The notes under the pieces were generated by a model that saw nothing but the letters and a program-made list of their open reading frames with translations, had not been told where the DNA came from and searched no databases. DNA of 38,823 nt from a virus. Shown here in pieces: positions 9,064 to 17,013 of this stretch; positions within the stretch are counted from its first letter, which is position 1, and each line of letters begins with the position of its first letter. Position numbers and translations under genes: made by a program. The stretch is from positions 1-38,823 of the IMG/VR virus record IMGVR_UViG_3300046476_000191; one strand, given 5' to 3'.

Positions 9064-9515
9064 TGGAACGGGTGCCGATGATCGTGCATGGCATTGCCCT
9101 GCATTCCGGCGGCGCCGAGGCGACCGCGGTGCTGTCGCGGTTGAAGACCGGCCAGCGCGTGCAGGTCGAGATCTACCAGGAGCGGCCGAAGTTCCTGTCC
9201 AACCGGGCGGCAAAAGTGTTCGAGCTGATCGGCCAGGCCAAGGGGATGCGCGTGCGCAACGTCCGCGGCTGGATCGCAGTCGGCACCGGCCGCGCCGACC
9301 TGGTCGACATCGGCGGCGGCAAGGTGACGGCGATCCCGCACGGCACCGGCCCGCGCGACATGGATGGCGATCAGTTCGAGATGTTCTGGCAGGACGCGGT
9401 CGAGTTCATCGAGCGCGTGATCTTTCCAGGGATTTTACCGGAGCACCGCGAGTTGATCGCGCCGCTGCTCTGGATCGAAACCGGCGAAAGCCGGCCCGCA
9501 CCCGCGCCGTTCTGA
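9063..9515 (+). CDS. Hypothetical protein, recombination operon
   Basis: Protein of 150 residues coupled to RecT by a TGATG overlap. A conserved-looking core LKTGQRVQVEIYQERPKFLSNRAAKVFELIG is loosely reminiscent of NinB/DUF1367-type phage proteins, which open with a beta-turn-beta element and a helix carrying R and K residues. I do not regard that as proven. The remainder is mixed, ending in a Pro-rich tail (ESRPAPAPF). NinB-like proteins bind single-stranded DNA and assist recombination, which would suit this operon. Confidence 0.6.
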   Translation: MERVPMIVHGIALHSGGAEATAVLSRLKTGQRVQVEIYQERPKFLSNRAAKVFELIGQAKGMRVRNVRGWIAVGTGRADLVDIGGGKVTAIPHGTGPRDMDGDQFEMFWQDAVEFIERVIFPGILPEHRELIAPLLWIETGESRPAPAPF

Positions 9516-9571
9516 AAAGCCCACCCCTGCCGTCGTGGCAGGACGGCGCGGTGTTGCGGGAGGAGGCGATG

Positions 9572-9832
9572 ATGGGACGGGAAGAATTTTCGGTGTGGCA
9601 GTATTTCTCGGATCCCGAGCAGGCGCCGGAATGCGTCCGCCGCTACGTCTCGGCCGAGGAAGCCGTCAAGGCCGCCTGCCACTACACCACCTCGGTCGGC
9701 GCCAGATCCGGCTTTGTCGAGCGCGTCATCATCACCGACGGCGGCGACTGCACCGTGTTCGATTGGCGCAAAGGGATCGGCGTGATCTGGCCGGAAAAAC
9801 TTGAACCCGCAACCGAAGGAGATCCGCAATGA
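9572..9832 (+). CDS. Hypothetical protein
   Basis: Protein of 86 residues, no recognised family. GGGAGGAGG at 9558-9566 lies just before two adjacent ATG codons (9569 and 9572). The second has the better spacing. The sequence is compact and mixed alpha/beta with several aromatic residues (VWQYF near the start; FDWRKGIGVIWPEK near the end). This resembles small substrate- or protein-binding phage proteins but allows no functional call. Its stop overlaps the next start (ATGA). Confidence 0.62.
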   Translation: MGREEFSVWQYFSDPEQAPECVRRYVSAEEAVKAACHYTTSVGARSGFVERVIITDGGDCTVFDWRKGIGVIWPEKLEPATEGDPQ

Positions 9833-10128
9833 CCATCACCGACATCGAGCCGGCTTCGCACAACGAAAAAATGCGCGAGGCCATCAAGAAGGTGGTCGGC
9901 GAGCTCGCCACCGACGTGGTCAGAAACCTGAAGGATCTGCGCCGCCAGATCGACGAGCTCGAGCAGCTCGTCATGACCAACGCCGAGCGCGTTTCCGGCT
10001 CGCTCACCGAACACGCCAACATCTGCGGCGAGGTGCAGCAGGAAATCGTTCGGTTAAACGGCGTCGTTGCCACGATGCGCGCCAACCAGAACGAAGCAAC
10101 CCAGGTGAACGGCCATGGCAGCAACTGA
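9829..10128 (+). CDS. Hypothetical coiled-coil protein
   Basis: Protein of 99 residues, almost entirely helical. It has a heptad pattern across about residues 15-55 (VVGELATDVVRNLKDLRRQIDELEQLV) and a second helix 65-90. The start is translationally coupled to the preceding gene by ATGA. It overlaps the following gene by 14 bases. Probably a small oligomeric accessory protein; family unknown. Confidence 0.62.
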   Translation: MTITDIEPASHNEKMREAIKKVVGELATDVVRNLKDLRRQIDELEQLVMTNAERVSGSLTEHANICGEVQQEIVRLNGVVATMRANQNEATQVNGHGSN

Positions 10129-10315
10129 GAAGATCATCACCGCCGCCGACAAGTTGAAGTGCGCGGAGCGCGAATTGAAACAGCGTTATCGCGTCTATGC
10201 GCGGCTGGTAGACAAGGAAAAGATGACCCAGCAACAAGCCGACCGCGAGATCGAACTGATGGAAGAAATCGCCGCCGACTATCGGGCTTTGGCCGAAAAA
10301 GAACGGCTGCTTTGA
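10115..10315 (+). CDS. Hypothetical small charged helical protein
   Basis: Protein of 66 residues rich in Glu, Lys and Ala, predicted as two helices (EKIITAADKLKCAERELKQRYRVYARL and a C-terminal EEIAADYRALAEKERLL). The start lies within the end of the preceding coiled-coil gene, so the two are probably expressed together. It is the last gene before the second operator-like dyad. Confidence 0.6.
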   Translation: MAATEKIITAADKLKCAERELKQRYRVYARLVDKEKMTQQQADREIELMEEIAADYRALAEKERLL

Positions 10316-10344
10316 CCCAAGTCTTTGAAATCGCGCAGTTTTAC

Positions 10345-10362
10345 CTATAGCCATAGCTATAG
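10345..10362. promoter_or_regulatory. Operator-like dyad, copy 2
   Basis: CTATAGC and GCTATAG arms around CATA, matching copy 1 at 6803-6820 in both arms and in part of the flanks. It sits 30 bp before the small gene that leads into the recombinase. It could therefore control integration functions separately from the upstream recombination genes. Confidence 0.6.
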
Positions 10363-10391
10363 ATTTATTAACGCAAATCAGGGTAAATGTG

Positions 10392-10598
10392 ATGGTGCGT
10401 CGCCGTTCCAGCAAGGCGGTAATCAGGCCGCTGGATCCCTCTGATCCGCGAAACCTGGATCATCCGTCCCACAAGGAACAGTGGCTGGCACTCGCCCGCG
10501 CGCTGGGGCGGCTGGACGCAAGGCGAGATTTTGAAGCGCTTCGCAAGGGGGAAAGAATTGGCCAAACTTCAGCTCGTAAAACCAAGCCCGGTCCTTAG
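10392..10598 (+). CDS. Short protein preceding the recombinase
   Basis: Protein of 68 residues from ATG 10392 with CAGGG upstream (a GTG one codon earlier is possible). A DPSDPRNLDHPSHKEQWLALARALGR segment recalls short proteins that I remember lying directly before serine recombinase genes in alphaproteobacterial prophages. That recollection is unverified. The gene overlaps the recombinase start by about 40 bases in another frame, so the two are co-translated. A role as recombination accessory or directionality factor is possible but unsupported by any motif. Confidence 0.6.
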   Translation: MVRRRSSKAVIRPLDPSDPRNLDHPSHKEQWLALARALGRLDARRDFEALRKGERIGQTSARKTKPGP

Positions 10599-12285
10599 AG
10601 GCGCGATCTATGCGCGCTATTCCAGCGACGTGCAGAACGATCGTTCGATCGAGCGGCAAAATGCCGATCTGGAAAAAGCGGCGCCGCGGCTGAACATCGG
10701 GCTGAACAAACGGCTTTACTTTGAGGACCGTGGCCAGTCGGCAACGACGCTGTTCGATCGACCCGGTCTGACCCGCGGCCTGCTCGGCGCCGTTGAGCGG
10801 GGTGAGGTTGATGTGGTTCTGGTCGAGCATACCGACCGGCTGGCGCGCAAGGGCGCAGACAGTTATTGGCTGTTCGAGCAATTCAAGTTTTACAACGTCA
10901 AGGTCTACACGCTGAAAGGCGAGGTCACCGACATCCAGCTCGCCTTCGAGAGTTACCAGAACCAGGCCGACAGTGAAAAGACCAGCTTCCGCGTCCATAG
11001 CGGCCACAACGATGCGGCGCGCGAGGGACACGTCACCGGACCGTGCGCCTATGGCTATGTGGATGTGATCGGCAAGCCCGGCGAGAAGAACACAAACCCC
11101 GGCGAGGCGGAAATCGTCAACCGCATCGTGCTTGAGATGGCGAGCCGAAAGCCGCCGAGGCAAATCGCCTTCGACCTGACCCGCGACGGCATCCCTGCGC
11201 CGAAGGGCGGTCCGTGGACTTTCCAGACCGTCGTCAAGATCCTGCAAAATGAATTGTACGTTGGCGTGTATGTGCGGAACAAGGTCCGCAAGATCCGGAA
11301 CCCCAACACCGGCAACCGTGTCCCGCGCCCGTCGGCGCCCGAGGACATCCTCCGCGTTGAGATGCCTCGCCTGCGCATCGTGGATCAGGATCTATGGGAC
11401 GCCGCGCAAAAAGTCCGGCAGGATCGCGCCCACACCTACGGCGGCAAGCGAGGAACTGAGCGCGGAACGACGGCGCGCAAACTGCACCCGTTCGCCGGCT
11501 TGTTTCGCTGTTCCGACTGCGGGGGAAAGATGATCATCTGCGGCTCGGGTCGAAACGGCGACCGCTCGATTGCCTGCTCGGCCGCCTGGTGGAACAAGAG
11601 TTGCTCGCACGGGAAGAGCTACAGCCTGAGGCGGCTAACCAGGCACGCGACCGAAAAAATGCACGCCCACCTGACCGACCCGGACTTTGTCAAGGAACGC
11701 GCCAGGGAGCGGGAGAAGGAACTGATCCGCCTCGACCGGGAAGTCAACGGCGAGCGCACCGCCGCGCAGAGGGAACTGGACCGGGTCGACCTGCGGATGA
11801 AAAAGATCGTCCGGCTGATCGAGGACGACGAAGGCGACGACGTCCCGGCGGAAGTCCAGGCGAGGTACAAGGATCTGCGGATCGAACAGCGCGGGCTGCA
11901 GCAACGCATCGCGTTGCTTGACGCCTCGTCCCATGCGCCGCTGCTGCCCAGCGCCGTCAAGGCGCTGGCGAGGGATGTCGACACCCTGCACACCATGCTG
12001 CTCGACAATCCCGATGACCCGGCCTGCCGGATGGCGCTGGGTAATCTGATCGAGCGGGTTCTGGTTCACCCCAGTGGCTACAAGGAGGGTTATGACGTCA
12101 GCCTGTACGCCCGGCACGCGGCCTATTCCGGCACCCTGCCGCTGTTCCCGCAAGCCCGCGATAATAATCCCGTTAGAAAACAGGCACTTGCCCGTTCCAA
12201 TATAGACAATGCCATTGTCCCGTCATTGCCTATATTGGAACGGATGGTCTTCCTCGGCCGCTGGCGGGAAGCGAGGGCGGCGTGA
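10558..12285 (+). CDS. Large serine recombinase (phage integrase)
   Basis: Protein of 575 residues from TTG 10558, chosen because AAGGGGG lies 6-8 bases upstream. A TTG at 10531 would add nine residues. The resolvase domain starts near residue 14: YARYSSD with the catalytic serine at 22, and DRLAR with the two active-site arginines near 94 and 97. The recombinase domain follows (about 170-270), then a zinc ribbon with CSDCG, CS and SC pairs (about 320-360). A long coiled coil (about 380-460) typical of large serine integrases comes next. The enzyme would integrate phage DNA at a host attB by strand exchange through a 2-bp core. A 20-bp inverted repeat inside its 3' end (12192-12243) is a candidate attP. 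Confidence 0.93.
   Translation: MAKLQLVKPSPVLRGAIYARYSSDVQNDRSIERQNADLEKAAPRLNIGLNKRLYFEDRGQSATTLFDRPGLTRGLLGAVERGEVDVVLVEHTDRLARKGADSYWLFEQFKFYNVKVYTLKGEVTDIQLAFESYQNQADSEKTSFRVHSGHNDAAREGHVTGPCAYGYVDVIGKPGEKNTNPGEAEIVNRIVLEMASRKPPRQIAFDLTRDGIPAPKGGPWTFQTVVKILQNELYVGVYVRNKVRKIRNPNTGNRVPRPSAPEDILRVEMPRLRIVDQDLWDAAQKVRQDRAHTYGGKRGTERGTTARKLHPFAGLFRCSDCGGKMIICGSGRNGDRSIACSAAWWNKSCSHGKSYSLRRLTRHATEKMHAHLTDPDFVKERAREREKELIRLDREVNGERTAAQRELDRVDLRMKKIVRLIEDDEGDDVPAEVQARYKDLRIEQRGLQQRIALLDASSHAPLLPSAVKALARDVDTLHTMLLDNPDDPACRMALGNLIERVLVHPSGYKEGYDVSLYARHAAYSGTLPLFPQARDNNPVRKQALARSNIDNAIVPSLPILERMVFLGRWREARAA
12192..12243. other. 52-bp dyad, candidate attP within the recombinase gene
   Basis: The arms at 12192-12211 and 12224-12243 are inverted copies with one mismatch over 20 positions (core CGTTCCAATATAG, then N, then CAATG). 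A 12-base centre separates them. A second, smaller dyad ACAATG-C-CATTGT lies at 12206-12218. The total length and the inward half-site arrangement match attP sites of large serine recombinases. Such sites usually lie beside the integrase gene. Here the site would overlap the last 30 codons, so integration would change the protein's C-terminus. A transcription terminator is less likely because no T-run follows. Confidence 0.5.
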
Positions 12286-12288
12286 TGG

Positions 12289-12513
12289 CTACCGCCGCAG
12301 CAGCTCGATCGGGTCCACTCCCAGCGCGCGCGCCAGCCGCTCGATGTTGTCGATCGAGATGTTGCGCTCGCCGTGCTCGACCGAGCCGATATAGGTCCGG
12401 TGCAGGTCGGCCTCATGGGCAAGCCGTTCCTGGGACAGGCCGCGGGCGATCCGCGCCGCCTTCAGGTTTGCGGCAAAACATTTCCTTAAGGATCGGTTGT
12501 TCTTGCGTGGCAT
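12289..12513 (-). CDS. XRE/Cro-C1-type repressor-like regulator
   Basis: Protein of 74 residues, essentially one HTH_3 domain. LKAARIARGLSQERLAHEADLHRTYIGSVEHGERN places the recognition helix at about 38-48. A dimerisation-type end IDNIERLARALGVDPIELL follows. The architecture is the short transcriptional-repressor type. It is transcribed toward the recombinase gene with only 3 bases between the stops. It is the likeliest lysogeny repressor, or a regulator of integration. ATG 12513 has GGGAGG about 10 bases upstream. A promoter-like arrangement with an overlapping palindrome lies at 12571-12604. Confidence 0.85.
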   Translation of the reverse strand: MPRKNNRSLRKCFAANLKAARIARGLSQERLAHEADLHRTYIGSVEHGERNISIDNIERLARALGVDPIELLRR

Positions 12514-12570
12514 GGGCGGAATTCCTCCCAGCCCGGACGCCTATCGGTCGACAGACTCTAGTAGGAGTTT

Positions 12571-12604
12571 TGCCCAAAAATAGGGCACGGTTGTCACTCC
12601 ACAA
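12571..12604 (-). promoter_or_regulatory. Possible promoter and operator of the XRE gene
   Basis: On the minus strand TTGTGG (12604-12599) and TATTTT (12582-12577) are 16 bases apart, a plausible -35/-10 pair. The palindrome TGCCC-AAAAATA-GGGCA (12571-12587) covers the -10, as expected for autoregulation by a repressor. A second small palindrome, GTGTA-T-TACAC, is at 12638-12648. All are short, so confidence is limited. Confidence 0.35.
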
Positions 12605-12742
12605 TGTAGACTTTAAGTGGCAACCTTTTGCTCGGTTGTGTATTACACCTGTTGTTAGTCTGGAAGCCAAAGCTGAGTGCCATTCCCGCTTGCGCCGTCG
12701 GGACCGGCGCCAGGCGTCTTGCGGCGCGTCGAGGAGGGGTCG

Positions 12743-13111
12743 ATGATGACTCCGCTCCTCAAGGCTGCGTTGGGTGGTGCTGCGTTGTGGTCGGTGATGT
12801 TGATCGCCGTCACGGAACGCGATCCCCCTCGCCCTCAAGCCAGCGTCCCCGATCCAATTGCGGAGCGCTGGCCACCCGAACCCGAACTGCTGCGGAAAGC
12901 CGACCGACTTCCTCTGCCCCCAGTCGAGACGGTCGCCGCAACGGTGGAGCCGGCGGCGGAGCCGCCTTCGTCGCCGGCGTTCATCCCACAACCCAAACCC
13001 CGCGTCAGGACGATCAGCCACCACGCCAGCCTCGACGTCTGCACCCGTCACGGCATGCGCAAGGTGACGACACATGGCGGCCGGTCCTGGCGCTGCCGGA
13101 GGTCCGCATGA
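12743..13111 (+). CDS. Hypothetical membrane-anchored proline-rich protein
   Basis: Protein of 122 residues from ATG 12743 (a second ATG follows directly). GAGGAGGGG at 12731-12739 serves as ribosome-binding site. An N-terminal hydrophobic segment (residues 5-23, LLKAALGGAALWSVMLIAV) acts as an uncleaved anchor or signal. A Pro-rich spacer of about 60 residues follows. The tail contains CTRHGMRK and RSWRCRR, a short Cys/His/Arg motif that I recall from other rhizobial hypothetical proteins. A membrane-tethered protein with a basic, possibly metal- or nucleic-acid-binding tail is consistent. Function unknown. Confidence 0.62.
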   Translation: MMTPLLKAALGGAALWSVMLIAVTERDPPRPQASVPDPIAERWPPEPELLRKADRLPLPPVETVAATVEPAAEPPSSPAFIPQPKPRVRTISHHASLDVCTRHGMRKVTTHGGRSWRCRRSA

Positions 13112-13293
13112 AAAAAAGGGAATGGAGAAAGGCCGAGGCCGAGAAGCTCAAGCGGGCCAAGTTGAAGAAGGCCACGACTGTTGCAAGCGGCAAGTACCCT
13201 CTCGGCGGTGTCGAAAAGACGCGCCGCCACAAGCCGCCACCGGTCACGCTGGCAAGCGCGCGGACATTGCAGAAACTGATCGACGAGAGTTAG
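13108..13293 (+). CDS. Small basic hypothetical protein
   Basis: Protein of 61 residues, strongly basic in its first 25 (KKREWRKAEAEKLKRAKLKK). A helical tail (LASARTLQKLIDES) follows. The start is coupled to the preceding gene by ATGA. It ends 5 bases from the stop of the leftward late operon, so transcription converges here. I find no intrinsic terminator between them. Family not recognised. Confidence 0.6.
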   Translation: MKKREWRKAEAEKLKRAKLKKATTVASGKYPLGGVEKTRRHKPPPVTLASARTLQKLIDES

Positions 13294-13298
13294 CAGGG

Positions 13299-13577
13299 CT
13301 ATTTAGTTTTGATCTTCAGCGTCACCGTCTGGTCCATGATGCGGCCCTCCACGGTGTTCACCCGATTAAGCACGTCATAGACTTCGCCGGTGGTACCCGA
13401 CGACAGCCAGATCGTGGTCGAGCTATCCGACATTTCCTCGTTATCGCCGACCAGGCCATCCGGAACGAACCATTCCGAGGCTGAGATCACGTCGGGACTA
13501 GTCAGCCGTGGTGACCAGTCGATGTTGTAATCCAGCAGTTCGTCTTCGTCCTTGTCGCTCCATTTGGGAAACGCCAT
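13299..13577 (-). CDS. Phage fibre-tail adaptor-like protein
   Basis: Protein of 92 residues beginning MAFPKWSDKDEDELLDYNIDW, then an Ig-like beta domain (VISASEWFVPDGL, TTIWLSSGTTGEVYDV, MDQTVTLKIKTK). I recall this WSDKDPDE-x-LDY-x-IDW family from phage tail regions, named fibre-tail adaptor in some annotations; the name is from memory. It is the last gene of the late operon and directly follows the giant repeat fibre, whose 3' end it overlaps by 80 bases in another frame. Probably helps attach or complete the fibre. Confidence 0.72.
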   Translation of the reverse strand: MAFPKWSDKDEDELLDYNIDWSPRLTSPDVISASEWFVPDGLVGDNEEMSDSSTTIWLSSGTTGEVYDVLNRVNTVEGRIMDQTVTLKIKTK

Positions 13578-16500
13578 GGATTTCTCCCTTCGCTTGTATG
13601 GTTCTGAATTCCTCGATCGCCAACGCGACGCGGCTTTCCACCGGCACGGCGATCATGCGCCGTTCGGCAACGGCCTGCGCGATGCGTGTCTCCGCCATGA
13701 CCTGGACGATGCGATCCTCGGCCACGGCCTGCACGGTCCGATCGGAAATCGTCCATTCGCCACCGAAGATCCGCGCCACGTTGCCGGTCAGGACATAGTG
13801 GCCCGGCTCGGCGACCACGGAATGCAGACCGATCCGGTTGATGATGGCCGAACTGCCAGTCAGGGCATAGGACGCAGCGGCTGCCTGCAGCTTCCTGGCG
13901 CGGCGCAGGATGGCCGGCGTGCCGGCGATGGCATACGAACTGCCGGCGGCCGGGAGGCGCCAGTTGTAGAGCACCAGCGCCGGTTTGCCCGCCAGGGCAT
14001 AGGCCCCGGCTTGTGCGGTGACGACCTTGCGCAGCCGGGCCAGCGTGACCGCCGCACCTGTCAGTGCGTAATTAGCCGAGCCGACCGAAACCTTGTAGCC
14101 GTGCCACGGTCTCGCCGGACCGCCTGTCAGCGCGTAGCTGCCGCCGATCGGCGCGAACAGTTTCAGGCTGAGCCGTGTAGAGGCATCCGTTCCCGTCAGC
14201 GCATAGGATCCCGGCGCCGCGGTGATGGTCCTGGCCGGCACATGGTTGATGGTGGCGGCAGTGCCTGTGACTGCGTAGCTCGAGGCGCCGGCTATAACCG
14301 CGTAGCCGTGCCATGGTCTCGCCGCAGTGCCGATCAGGGCATACGAACCGCCGAGCGCCGTGTGCTTCCAGGTATGCAGGACCGAGACAGCGGCACCGGT
14401 CAGCGTATAGCTGGCGCTGCCGGCGACCAGGAACTTGTTCGCAAACCTGGTGATCGTCGCGGCGTTGCCGGTGATGGCATAGCTTCCGGCCAGTGCTGCC
14501 GGCTTGTAGGTCCGCCGCATGGTGACGGCGGTGCCGGTCAGTGCATAGACGCCGCTCGCCGCCGAGACGAACTTGTCGGAGCGGATCTGGAAGTTGACGG
14601 CCGAGCCCGTCAGCGCATAGGCGCCTGGTGCTGCGCTCAGCAAGTCCCTGTGAATGACGAACGTGGCGGCATTGCCGGTCAGCGCATAGGCGGCTGGTGT
14701 GGTTGCGACGACCTTCCAGCCGTGTCGCAGATTGGCGGCTGTACCCGTCAGCGCATAGCTGCTCGAGCCGGCCGCCAGCGCCTTGTTGGCGAACTTGGTC
14801 AGTGTCGCCGCGGTGCCGGTGAGGGCATACGAACCGCTGCCGGCAATCGGCCGCCAGGCGTGCAGCACCGCTGCTGCAGATCCCGTCAGTGCATAAGAAC
14901 CGCCAACCGCAGCCAGCGTCTTGAACGTGCGCTTGATGACCGCGGCGTCGGTGCCGGTGAGGGCATAGGATCCGCTGCCGGCGGCGATCGTCGACCTGTG
15001 CAGGAGATTGGTTGTAGCCGCGCCGGTGAGCGCATAAGAACCCGACAGCGCCGATGGCCGCCATTTGTGCAGCACGGCGGTGGTGCTGGCGCCAGTGAGC
15101 ACGTAACTGCCGCCGGCGGCCGGCAGCGTCTTGTTGACCAGCACCGTCGCCTTGGTGACCGCCGCATCGGTGCCGGTGAGAGAATAGCTGCCGCCGAGCG
15201 CCACCGGCCGATACTTGTGCAGCAGCGCGGTGGTGGCGGCACCCGTCAGCGCATAGTTGCCGCCAACCGTGGCATCGATCCGCGACTTGTGCAGGACGTT
15301 GGTCGTCGATGCGCCCGTGAGCGCGTAACTCGCGCCCGTCGTCGCGTCGATCCGGCGCTTGACCAGCACCGGCGTGGTGGTGCCGGTCAGCAGATAGCTG
15401 CCGCCACTCGCCGTCAGCGGATGGTCGACCGGTCCGGTAGTGCGGACCGTGTATTCGTTGTATTTCAGTGTGCCGTTGTCATTGACGACATACGGGATAA
15501 CGTAGGCGGTCCCGCGCAGGTAGATGGCCTGGTTCTTCGAGACGTTGGCGTCGGCGGCGGCCACCGTCGCCGTGAACACATCAATGCCAGATCCGAACGT
15601 CGCGCCGTTGTCGGTCGACTTCTTGACGTAGAGATCGCTGTCGGCGCTGTTCTGGTACAGCGCCCAGGCATCGGTGCCGTCGTCGGTGGCGCGGACCGGC
15701 GTGCCGAATGTGATGCTCGCCGCAGTGACAGTCGGGTTGTCGGCACTGTCCCAGCGGATCGATTGCGCCGCGGTATATCCTACATGCTTGATCGTGCCGG
15801 AACTGTCATACCGACATGCGTCCTGTACCGCGGTCGTAGCACCGGTAGAGGCCACCGTGCCCAGCACGTTGGCGCTGGTCAGGTGTCTCTGCAGCGTGTT
15901 GGTGGCGTTGTAGAATAGAAAATGCACCCGATCCGATGCGCCCAGCACCGCAATCGGGACCGTGTTGTTGACGCCAAGGCCGGCATCGACCAGGGTCTCG
16001 GTGCCGTAGGTGTTGACGCCAGTGCGTCGGCGGTAATAAACCCGCGACCACTGCGTCGAGACCTTGGTCTGCACGCCGTTGTAGAACGCGACCACCTCGC
16101 CGTTCGACCTGACAACCAGAGAGCAGCCCCAACCGGATGCCGCCGATCCGGTCAGGATCGATGCCGCCGATACCGTCTCTGTCGTCGCCAGGAACGTATC
16201 TGTTGCCGCGTCGAACGACAGATATTTTGTCGCGACCAGCGTCGCTGGCCCGGTGCCATCCTGCACCACCAGATGGATGACGTTGCCAACCTGATAGCCC
16301 GCGATGTTGAGGATGGCAGTCGTAAAGCCGGTGCGGTTGGCGATGGTAGACCACGACGTGTCCGGCGCGGTGGACTTGAATGCCTGCAGCGTGGTGGCGG
16401 TGGTGCCGTCGCGGCCGAAGAAGTAGTAGGCGTCGGAGAGGGTGACAGTTTTGTTGACGACAATCTGATAATCGCCGTTGCCCGCTGACCATGTCGTGCC

Positions 16501-17013
16501 GTTGTACAGCCAGAAGCTGCCACCCGCATAAACGCTGGTAGCGCCACTTGAGTTTATTTTCGGGAAATTCGAGACATCGGCGCCTCCTGTGCGCCAGAAC
16601 CTGACGGCAAACGTCGCACTTGCGGAAATTGTCGGCGGTGAGGCAAACGTGAACGTAATCGCGTTGGCCGTCGCAAATCCCGTTCCCGTTATGCTTGAGC
16701 AAGGGACGTTGGCGCTGGTTGCGAGCACCGATCCGTTGGCGTCGGTGGCGGTAATTTCAGCATAAACGTTGTCAGCCGGTGCCCCGGTTATCGACATCCA
16801 TACCGTGACGCTCGGTATTGTGAGCGCACTGGCACCGTTGGTGAGCGTCTGTGCGATGGCAGTCGTAGTTGTGCCGCCAGTGAGATTGGCGGCGGTGGTC
16901 GCGACGACAGCCGTGTCGATCCCGACGCCTGCATAATTCCCAGCCGCCACCTTGAACGGCCCGACAGGTGCGACCGCCGTCGAGATGCCGGTGATGGTGA
17001 CGGGCAGGGCCAT
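13498..17013 (-). CDS. Giant repeat-bearing tail fibre/host-recognition protein
   Basis: Protein of 1171 residues. Residues 1-190 form beta-sandwich material rich in Thr/Ala. About 200-530 is a sialidase-like propeller region; the Asp-box pattern STDNGATF is visible near 480. About 535-1095 holds 24 tandem repeats of 22-27 residues with the core G-S-Y-A-L-T-G-x-A-A, separated by basic linkers often containing LHKWRP-type elements. The last 75 residues carry an 8-residue periodic pattern with E-x-R anchors (AEDRIVQVMAETRIAQAVAERR). The repeats probably build an elongated shaft. Repeats of the same kind open the protein at 19362-20315. Receptor binding is inferred from size and location. Confidence 0.8.
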   Translation of the reverse strand: MALPVTITGISTAVAPVGPFKVAAGNYAGVGIDTAVVATTAANLTGGTTTTAIAQTLTNGASALTIPSVTVWMSITGAPADNVYAEITATDANGSVLATSANVPCSSITGTGFATANAITFTFASPPTISASATFAVRFWRTGGADVSNFPKINSSGATSVYAGGSFWLYNGTTWSAGNGDYQIVVNKTVTLSDAYYFFGRDGTTATTLQAFKSTAPDTSWSTIANRTGFTTAILNIAGYQVGNVIHLVVQDGTGPATLVATKYLSFDAATDTFLATTETVSAASILTGSAASGWGCSLVVRSNGEVVAFYNGVQTKVSTQWSRVYYRRRTGVNTYGTETLVDAGLGVNNTVPIAVLGASDRVHFLFYNATNTLQRHLTSANVLGTVASTGATTAVQDACRYDSSGTIKHVGYTAAQSIRWDSADNPTVTAASITFGTPVRATDDGTDAWALYQNSADSDLYVKKSTDNGATFGSGIDVFTATVAAADANVSKNQAIYLRGTAYVIPYVVNDNGTLKYNEYTVRTTGPVDHPLTASGGSYLLTGTTTPVLVKRRIDATTGASYALTGASTTNVLHKSRIDATVGGNYALTGAATTALLHKYRPVALGGSYSLTGTDAAVTKATVLVNKTLPAAGGSYVLTGASTTAVLHKWRPSALSGSYALTGAATTNLLHRSTIAAGSGSYALTGTDAAVIKRTFKTLAAVGGSYALTGSAAAVLHAWRPIAGSGSYALTGTAATLTKFANKALAAGSSSYALTGTAANLRHGWKVVATTPAAYALTGNAATFVIHRDLLSAAPGAYALTGSAVNFQIRSDKFVSAASGVYALTGTAVTMRRTYKPAALAGSYAITGNAATITRFANKFLVAGSASYTLTGAAVSVLHTWKHTALGGSYALIGTAARPWHGYAVIAGASSYAVTGTAATINHVPARTITAAPGSYALTGTDASTRLSLKLFAPIGGSYALTGGPARPWHGYKVSVGSANYALTGAAVTLARLRKVVTAQAGAYALAGKPALVLYNWRLPAAGSSYAIAGTPAILRRARKLQAAAASYALTGSSAIINRIGLHSVVAEPGHYVLTGNVARIFGGEWTISDRTVQAVAEDRIVQVMAETRIAQAVAERRMIAVPVESRVALAIEEFRTIQAKGEIHGVSQMERQGRRRTAGLQHRLVTTAD
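13765..15420 (-). repeat. 24-unit YALTG repeat array inside the giant fibre gene
   Basis: About 1.65 kb encodes 24 degenerate units of 22-27 residues, each centred on S-Y-A-L-T-G. The units differ enough in DNA to be old, yet short identical blocks remain and could drive unequal recombination and length change. Boundaries are approximate, taken from the first (GGSYLLTG) and last (PGHYVLTG) unit. Confidence 0.85.

Follow-up and report, generated by a model that had tools for sequence, protein, structure and literature searches.

Can a phage integrase gene hold the phage attachment site (attP) within its own last codons, and what would integration then do to the end of the integrase? This question is raised by the viral record IMGVR_UViG_3300046476_000191 (38,823 bases), which was analysed over its whole length and is called the window here. 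It carries terminase (TerL) and capsid genes besides a repressor-like gene, a phage context, and an inverted repeat lies in the 3' end of its recombinase gene. Judged from sequence comparison, it is highly probable that this dyad is the attP of the serine integrase whose last codons hold it.

A dyad at the 3' end of a large serine integrase gene

The following features of the window are discussed:

10531 to 12285, plus strand: gene of a large serine integrase; 584 codons when read from the listed TTG (Pfam, PHROG, structure match, invariant residues)
12192 to 12211, plus strand: left dyad arm, P half-site, codons 554-560 (repeat search, symmetry count, subfamily alignment)
12212 to 12223, plus strand: 12-nt centre with the proposed crossover dinucleotide GT at 12217-12218 (putative role)
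12224 to 12243, plus strand: right dyad arm, P' half-site (repeat search, symmetry count, subfamily alignment)
12218 to 12282, plus strand: codons of the tail lying right of the proposed crossover (P' side), VPSLPILERMVFLGRWREARAA; predicted to be replaced on integration
12289 to 12513, minus strand: gene for a 74-aa helix-turn-helix protein (probable repressor), convergent to the integrase gene

The recombinase has the domains of a large serine integrase, with Pfam Resolvase, Recombinase and Zn_ribbon_recom all above the cut-off. It belongs to the PHROG integrase family phrog_95 (E 2.9e-74), its nearest solved structure is SPbeta YokA (E 7.7e-8), and S31 and four cysteines (327, 330, 349, 358) are invariant across 29 sequences. 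The stop codon of the convergent helix-turn-helix gene ends 3 nt past the integrase stop.

The dyad is directly observed. A repeat search reproduced the 52-bp structure at 12192-12243 described in an earlier note, with two 20-nt arms that are 95% complementary (one mismatch) and stand 12 nt apart. Its score of 16 is the highest in the whole window (the runner-up has 13), and this score was reached by 2 of 200 first-order Markov sequences of window length and by 1 of 1000 synonymous-codon shuffles of the integrase gene. About the axis at 12217/12218, 20 of 22 positions pair, compared with 3 to 8 of 22 at 15 alternative centres. Since the integrase frame runs over 10531-12285 on the plus strand with 584 codons from the listed TTG, the dyad spans codons 554-571, within the last 31 codons, in agreement with the earlier observation that it overlaps codons near the recombinase C-terminus. 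Both ATA codons and the sole TCA codon of the gene fall within it. Its dimensions had been called attP-like, and indeed the 52 bp compare with the 50-bp stretch of attP over which contacts with a serine integrase dimer are expected (PMC3783163); the dyad has the length, the symmetry (20/22) and, with GT in all five members of its subfamily, the asymmetric central dinucleotide of a serine-integrase attP.

Palindromes serve many dimeric DNA-binding proteins and a repressor gene is adjacent, so that the dyad might instead bind another protein, such as a repressor or directionality factor, or be a secondary control site of the integrase, with attP elsewhere. We regard this as quite unlikely: the length of the dyad, where it sits at the end of the gene, and the fact that relatives have their junctions at this very place (see below) all point to attP, and the next-best dyad within 9500-13500 has arms of only 13 bp.

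Several further features of the window were observed. A minus-strand gene at 13498-17013 encodes a 1171-aa protein without PHROG match that contains many GSYALTG-like repeat units, which differ between the window and L003, the closest phage; the tRNA-Val called by ARAGORN at 16196-16275 on the minus strand lies inside these coding repeats and is probably a false positive. The window at position 1 and an independent contig, 3300046477_000260 (about 30331 of 30402), stop at nearly the same point, which adjoins the terminase end of the map and hints at a fixed genome end.

Conservation of the dyad in the close subfamily

The subfamily comprises five distinct members, namely the window, L003, L004 (equivalent to L006, with 99.99% identical DNA), L005 and the fragment L136; integrase protein identity to the window is 98% for L003, 89% for L004 and 88% for L005. 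The dyad is kept in all five and so is the central GT at 12217-12218; in L136 the arms, read by inspection, are 17 bp long with zero mismatches. Conservation at the level of nucleotides is directly visible: across the five members 86% of the arm cells pair, compared with 23-42% when one arm is slid, and 3 of 20 arm pairs have changed on both sides, 11 being invariant and uninformative either way. Among the four full-length genes, synonymous variation in the dyad (7.7% of 26 comparisons, versus 39.1% of 1485) is the minimum of the gene, so that selection acts on the DNA or the RNA and not on the protein alone. Beyond the dyad, inspection finds the motif LGRW[RK]E in every member though its codons differ, and the tail is therefore also conserved as protein.

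As an alternative, the dyad might act as a hairpin at the 3' end of the integrase mRNA, common to the convergent integrase and repressor transcripts and serving stability or termination. The dyad folds at -32.2 kcal/mol (z -5.4, equalled by 0 of 200 shuffles), the two genes converge just downstream, and the paired arm changes fit an RNA as well. The strong fold does not discriminate between the readings. No Rfam match was found across 11900-12700, the stem, by inspection, is AT-rich and lacks a trailing T run, unlike an intrinsic terminator, and an RNA role leaves unexplained both the common junction point of the relatives and the scar at the centre of the dyad in L003, which makes the hairpin a very improbable explanation.

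Junctions at the same place in relatives

Distant relatives were represented by 87 loci (the best 80 of 516 confirmed bacterial loci and seven viral ones) with an integrase identity of 27-37%. In this set the integrase stop codon lies within the locus in 82 of 87 cases and inside a tRNA gene on the opposite strand in 46; these are 44 tRNA-Met and 2 tRNA-Asn genes, the stop falls at an identical 44-nt offset in 40, and the integrase tails that end inside a tRNA read like ..VAGAGFEPATFRL. Because frame and offset are constant among diverse bacteria, an attachment site is placed at the end of the integrase gene. The contig stops less than 500 bp past the integrase stop in 40 of the 87, as if assembly breaks at the attachment site, a count that includes contigs possibly short for other causes.

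When the ends were aligned on the tRNA-end motif, 81 junctions from 74 loci were obtained. These take in two phage genomes and six further contigs that carry the motif (L267-L272), and exclude the 21 among the 87 relatives that are without it. The same junction point is directly seen in distant relatives. Symmetry at all 81 was scored over 22 positions about one fixed centre, in loci that are not independent and whose kinship is uncorrected. The 60 junctions running into a tRNA have a mean symmetry of 5.1/22 (range 3-10), chance being 5.5, compared with 12.0/22 (range 0-17) for the 21 non-tRNA junctions, of which 17 reach at least 10. Low values among the latter belong to L020 (8), L066 (8), L068 (5) and the truncated L069 (0), without which the non-tRNA mean rises to 12.6. 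To judge from the sequences, this contrast is the pattern of attL versus attP. The published genomes of the free phages RR1-A (11/22) and Mae-JY30 (17/22) have integrase ends that are dyads with non-tRNA tails, and the viral contig L007 (19/22) carries a dyad at the same gene end; several other non-tRNA junctions sit in bacterial contigs or tandem arrays, and their status as free attP is only putative. In each of the pairs L018/L020, L037/L058 and L053/L068, the two sequences share 28-30 of the 30 nt left of the centre and 7-12 of the 30 nt right of it, with the first mismatch at +3, i.e., a split 3 nt right of the centre.

Tandem sites also occur: in L044, L045, L032, L046 and L081 a non-tRNA junction precedes a second, tRNA junction in one gene end. 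As an observation of its own, one open integrase frame in each of L032, L037, L044, L045, L046 and L081 contains attachment-like junctions in twos or threes, spaced 45-96 bp (69 bp in L037).

At 15 of the 60 tRNA junctions the match to the tRNA breaks off right after the integrase stop and other sequence follows (L018, L034, L041, L042, L047, L052, L056, L072, L078, L080, L094, L267, L268, L270 and L271); they keep only the 3' half of the tRNA, as seen in L018, L034, L270 and L271. If these are phage forms that carry a tRNA copy, the integrase tail may remain unchanged on integration; if the tRNA was displaced by another element, the tail would change. For L026, a tRNA-type prophage in Aureimonas, the empty site was searched in 20 congeners: two bear the same integrase end, the flank of a third (L258) gave no useful match to the prophage genome, and the other prophage end was not found.

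The closest phage, L003, has an integrase 97-98% identical to that of the window, and the two sequences are collinear to either side of where the integrase gene ends. It contains in order a complete integrase gene with its own tail, a 1.2-kb methyltransferase segment and, 1220 bp past the first centre, a second right half-site that again has a complete tail. The second copy equals the first exactly for 20-21 nt from the position of window 12216, which is 2 nt left of the axis; further left, similarity to P drops to 10-12/26, a level reached by 761 of 20000 shuffles. The right half almost equals known P' halves, and no P half seen is as diverged as the left. A recombination scar is directly visible at the centre, and we read the second half-site, from a single contig that may contain an assembly error, as a putative hybrid left by a crossover at the dyad centre. 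The segment contains a DNA methyltransferase gene (L003:6752-7873, phrog_67) whose start codon overlaps the integrase stop; inspection suggests a frame shift near its 3' end, either a pseudogene or a sequencing error.

The layout of L003 could also be ordinary phage mosaicism, in which an integrase-methyltransferase module arrived through recombination, homologous or illegitimate, and the old integrase gene survived only as its 3' end; the break at the centre would then be coincidental. The window and L003 differ by further large indels, and the segment left of the second half-site is weakly P-like (10 to 12/26) and shares its frame with the tail, as expected of a diverged integrase remnant. 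The right half is, however, near-identical to P' and the left beyond any P divergence, with the change at most 2 nt from the axis. No donor was found: the methyltransferase relatives (best 80 of 446) reach about 60% identity, with the integrase present in L003 only, and a 17-mer taken from the left side of the second half-site matches two unrelated contigs. We consider mosaicism a serious possibility for L003, though the less probable one.

Integrated copies of the subfamily itself were looked for as well. Integrase and alignment searches found none (best 80 of 516 confirmed genome-contig loci). A half-site pattern in viral contigs matched 15 stretches, i.e., 4 known family contigs and 11 other sequence contexts, another scan matched 51 stretches, in which a peptide-pattern screen picked out L136 as a new member, and a further one returned 5 stretches, all already known. 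An integrase protein search over 385 genomes of the class gave none at E 1e-70, an empty answer that is uninformative by itself, and the P-half pattern with one mismatch allowed hit 7 of 397 genomes of the order, with an integrase beside none. Two of these seven have the same coding motif at the site, presumably a GMC-oxidoreductase motif; as a candidate attB it was rejected, the base right of the centre being A and not T. Because no integrated subfamily copy was found in these scans, we infer attB and the crossover of the window phage; evidence resembling attL and attR comes from the pairs of distant relatives with shared left and different right sides and from the hybrid half-site in L003, and none was seen in the subfamily scans. 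That attP lies at the end of the integrase gene, as the earlier note had it, is well supported by the junctions at the same place in relatives and by the scar at the L003 centre, rather than by an integrated copy of this phage. Counting against attP, identity is no higher than 27-37% in the relatives that show junctions, and these relatives use tRNA genes, which the window phage seemingly does not.

Probable exchange of the integrase tail and comparison with known systems

If the dyad is attP, the half-sites 12192-12217 and 12218-12243 would be the targets of integrase dimers, with strand exchange at the central GT against a host attB. From about codon 562 the integrase gene would then continue in host DNA, which would provide a new tail and stop, and the original tail would move with the repressor gene to the opposite prophage end. 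Given the attP reading, integration probably exchanges the integrase tail of this phage, unless attB restores it. The idea that integration rewrites the integrase end is supported in relatives whose frame continues into a host tRNA, but perhaps not throughout, since 15 of the 60 tRNA junctions may keep the tail. The tail lies outside the conserved domains and is predicted to be disordered (pLDDT <50 for residues 541-584, in a model with mean pLDDT 76.5 and pTM 0.42), which suggests that the dyad encodes a loose tail whose exchange need not harm the enzyme.

Of six subfamily tails, which come from related members and include the orphan copy of L003, five end in -AA and one in -VA, and the linker after LGRW[RK]E differs in length among them; the 11 other non-tRNA tails contain 3 -AA and 1 -VA. 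As background, 16 -AA and 4 -VA endings occur in 291 long frames of the relatives' loci, and 5 -AA and 2 -VA in 73 long frames of close phages. As a sign of tail function, the protein motif together with the -AA ending is suggestive only, and a degradation tag is an attractive guess and no more, as shared descent could explain the -AA count. Tentatively, the phage-form tail (LGRW[RK]E...-AA) might mark the integrase for proteolysis or set its direction, and a crossover in its own codons would remove it and alter stability or directionality; the site might also take cargo, as in L003, each insert bringing a half-site and a tail so that the attP dyad is rebuilt at the integrase gene. We hold this scenario to be doubtful, and a functional switch between integrating and lysogenic integrase forms, as had been suggested, is likewise improbable.

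In phiC31 and Bxb1, attP lies outside the integrase gene. SSV-type archaeal viruses carry attP inside a tyrosine integrase gene, which is split on integration; the window phage also has its attachment site in the integrase gene, but its integrase would change only in a disordered tail. The alphaproteobacterial serine-integrase prophages at tRNA-Met (best 80 of 516 loci) share with the window the junction at the gene end, flanking inverted repeats and an open frame across it; they differ in their identity of 27-37% and in junctions at the tRNA 3' end, the window dyad not being tRNA-based. Large serine integrases with an attP of about 50 bp, such as the Listeria A118/LI family (PMC3783163), and SPbeta YokA by sequence, share the domain order and the catalytic and zinc-ribbon residues with the window integrase, and A118/LI-type attP resembles the dyad in length and in two-fold symmetry about a central dinucleotide (PMC3783163); in contrast to these types, the site of the window lies within the integrase's own last codons. 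The mycobacteriophages with integration-dependent immunity likewise have attP within a reading frame, and integration alters the C terminus (PMC8092301, PMC9934374). There, however, a repressor gene and, in the examples of PMC8092301, a tyrosine-type integrase are concerned, compared with the serine-type integrase gene itself in the window, where the repressor-like gene ends at 12289, outside the dyad. The virion-form proteins of mycobacteriophages with attP in the repressor gene often end in -AA, read as an ssrA-like tag lost on integration (PMC8092301).

No title on a serine integrase whose own gene contains attP was met in the literature searched, most subscription journals lying outside it, and we do not claim that such a case is unpublished. 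Serine-integrase attachment sites are described as hard to predict, the core shared with the host being very short (PMC10654092). If attP is regularly a dyad in the last integrase codons, it would be readable from sequence across an entire alphaproteobacterial clade and would provide ready integrase-attP pairs. With attP in the integrase's own codons, one could also test directly if the reaction that a phage integrase carries out alters the enzyme itself, which would parallel integration-dependent immunity.
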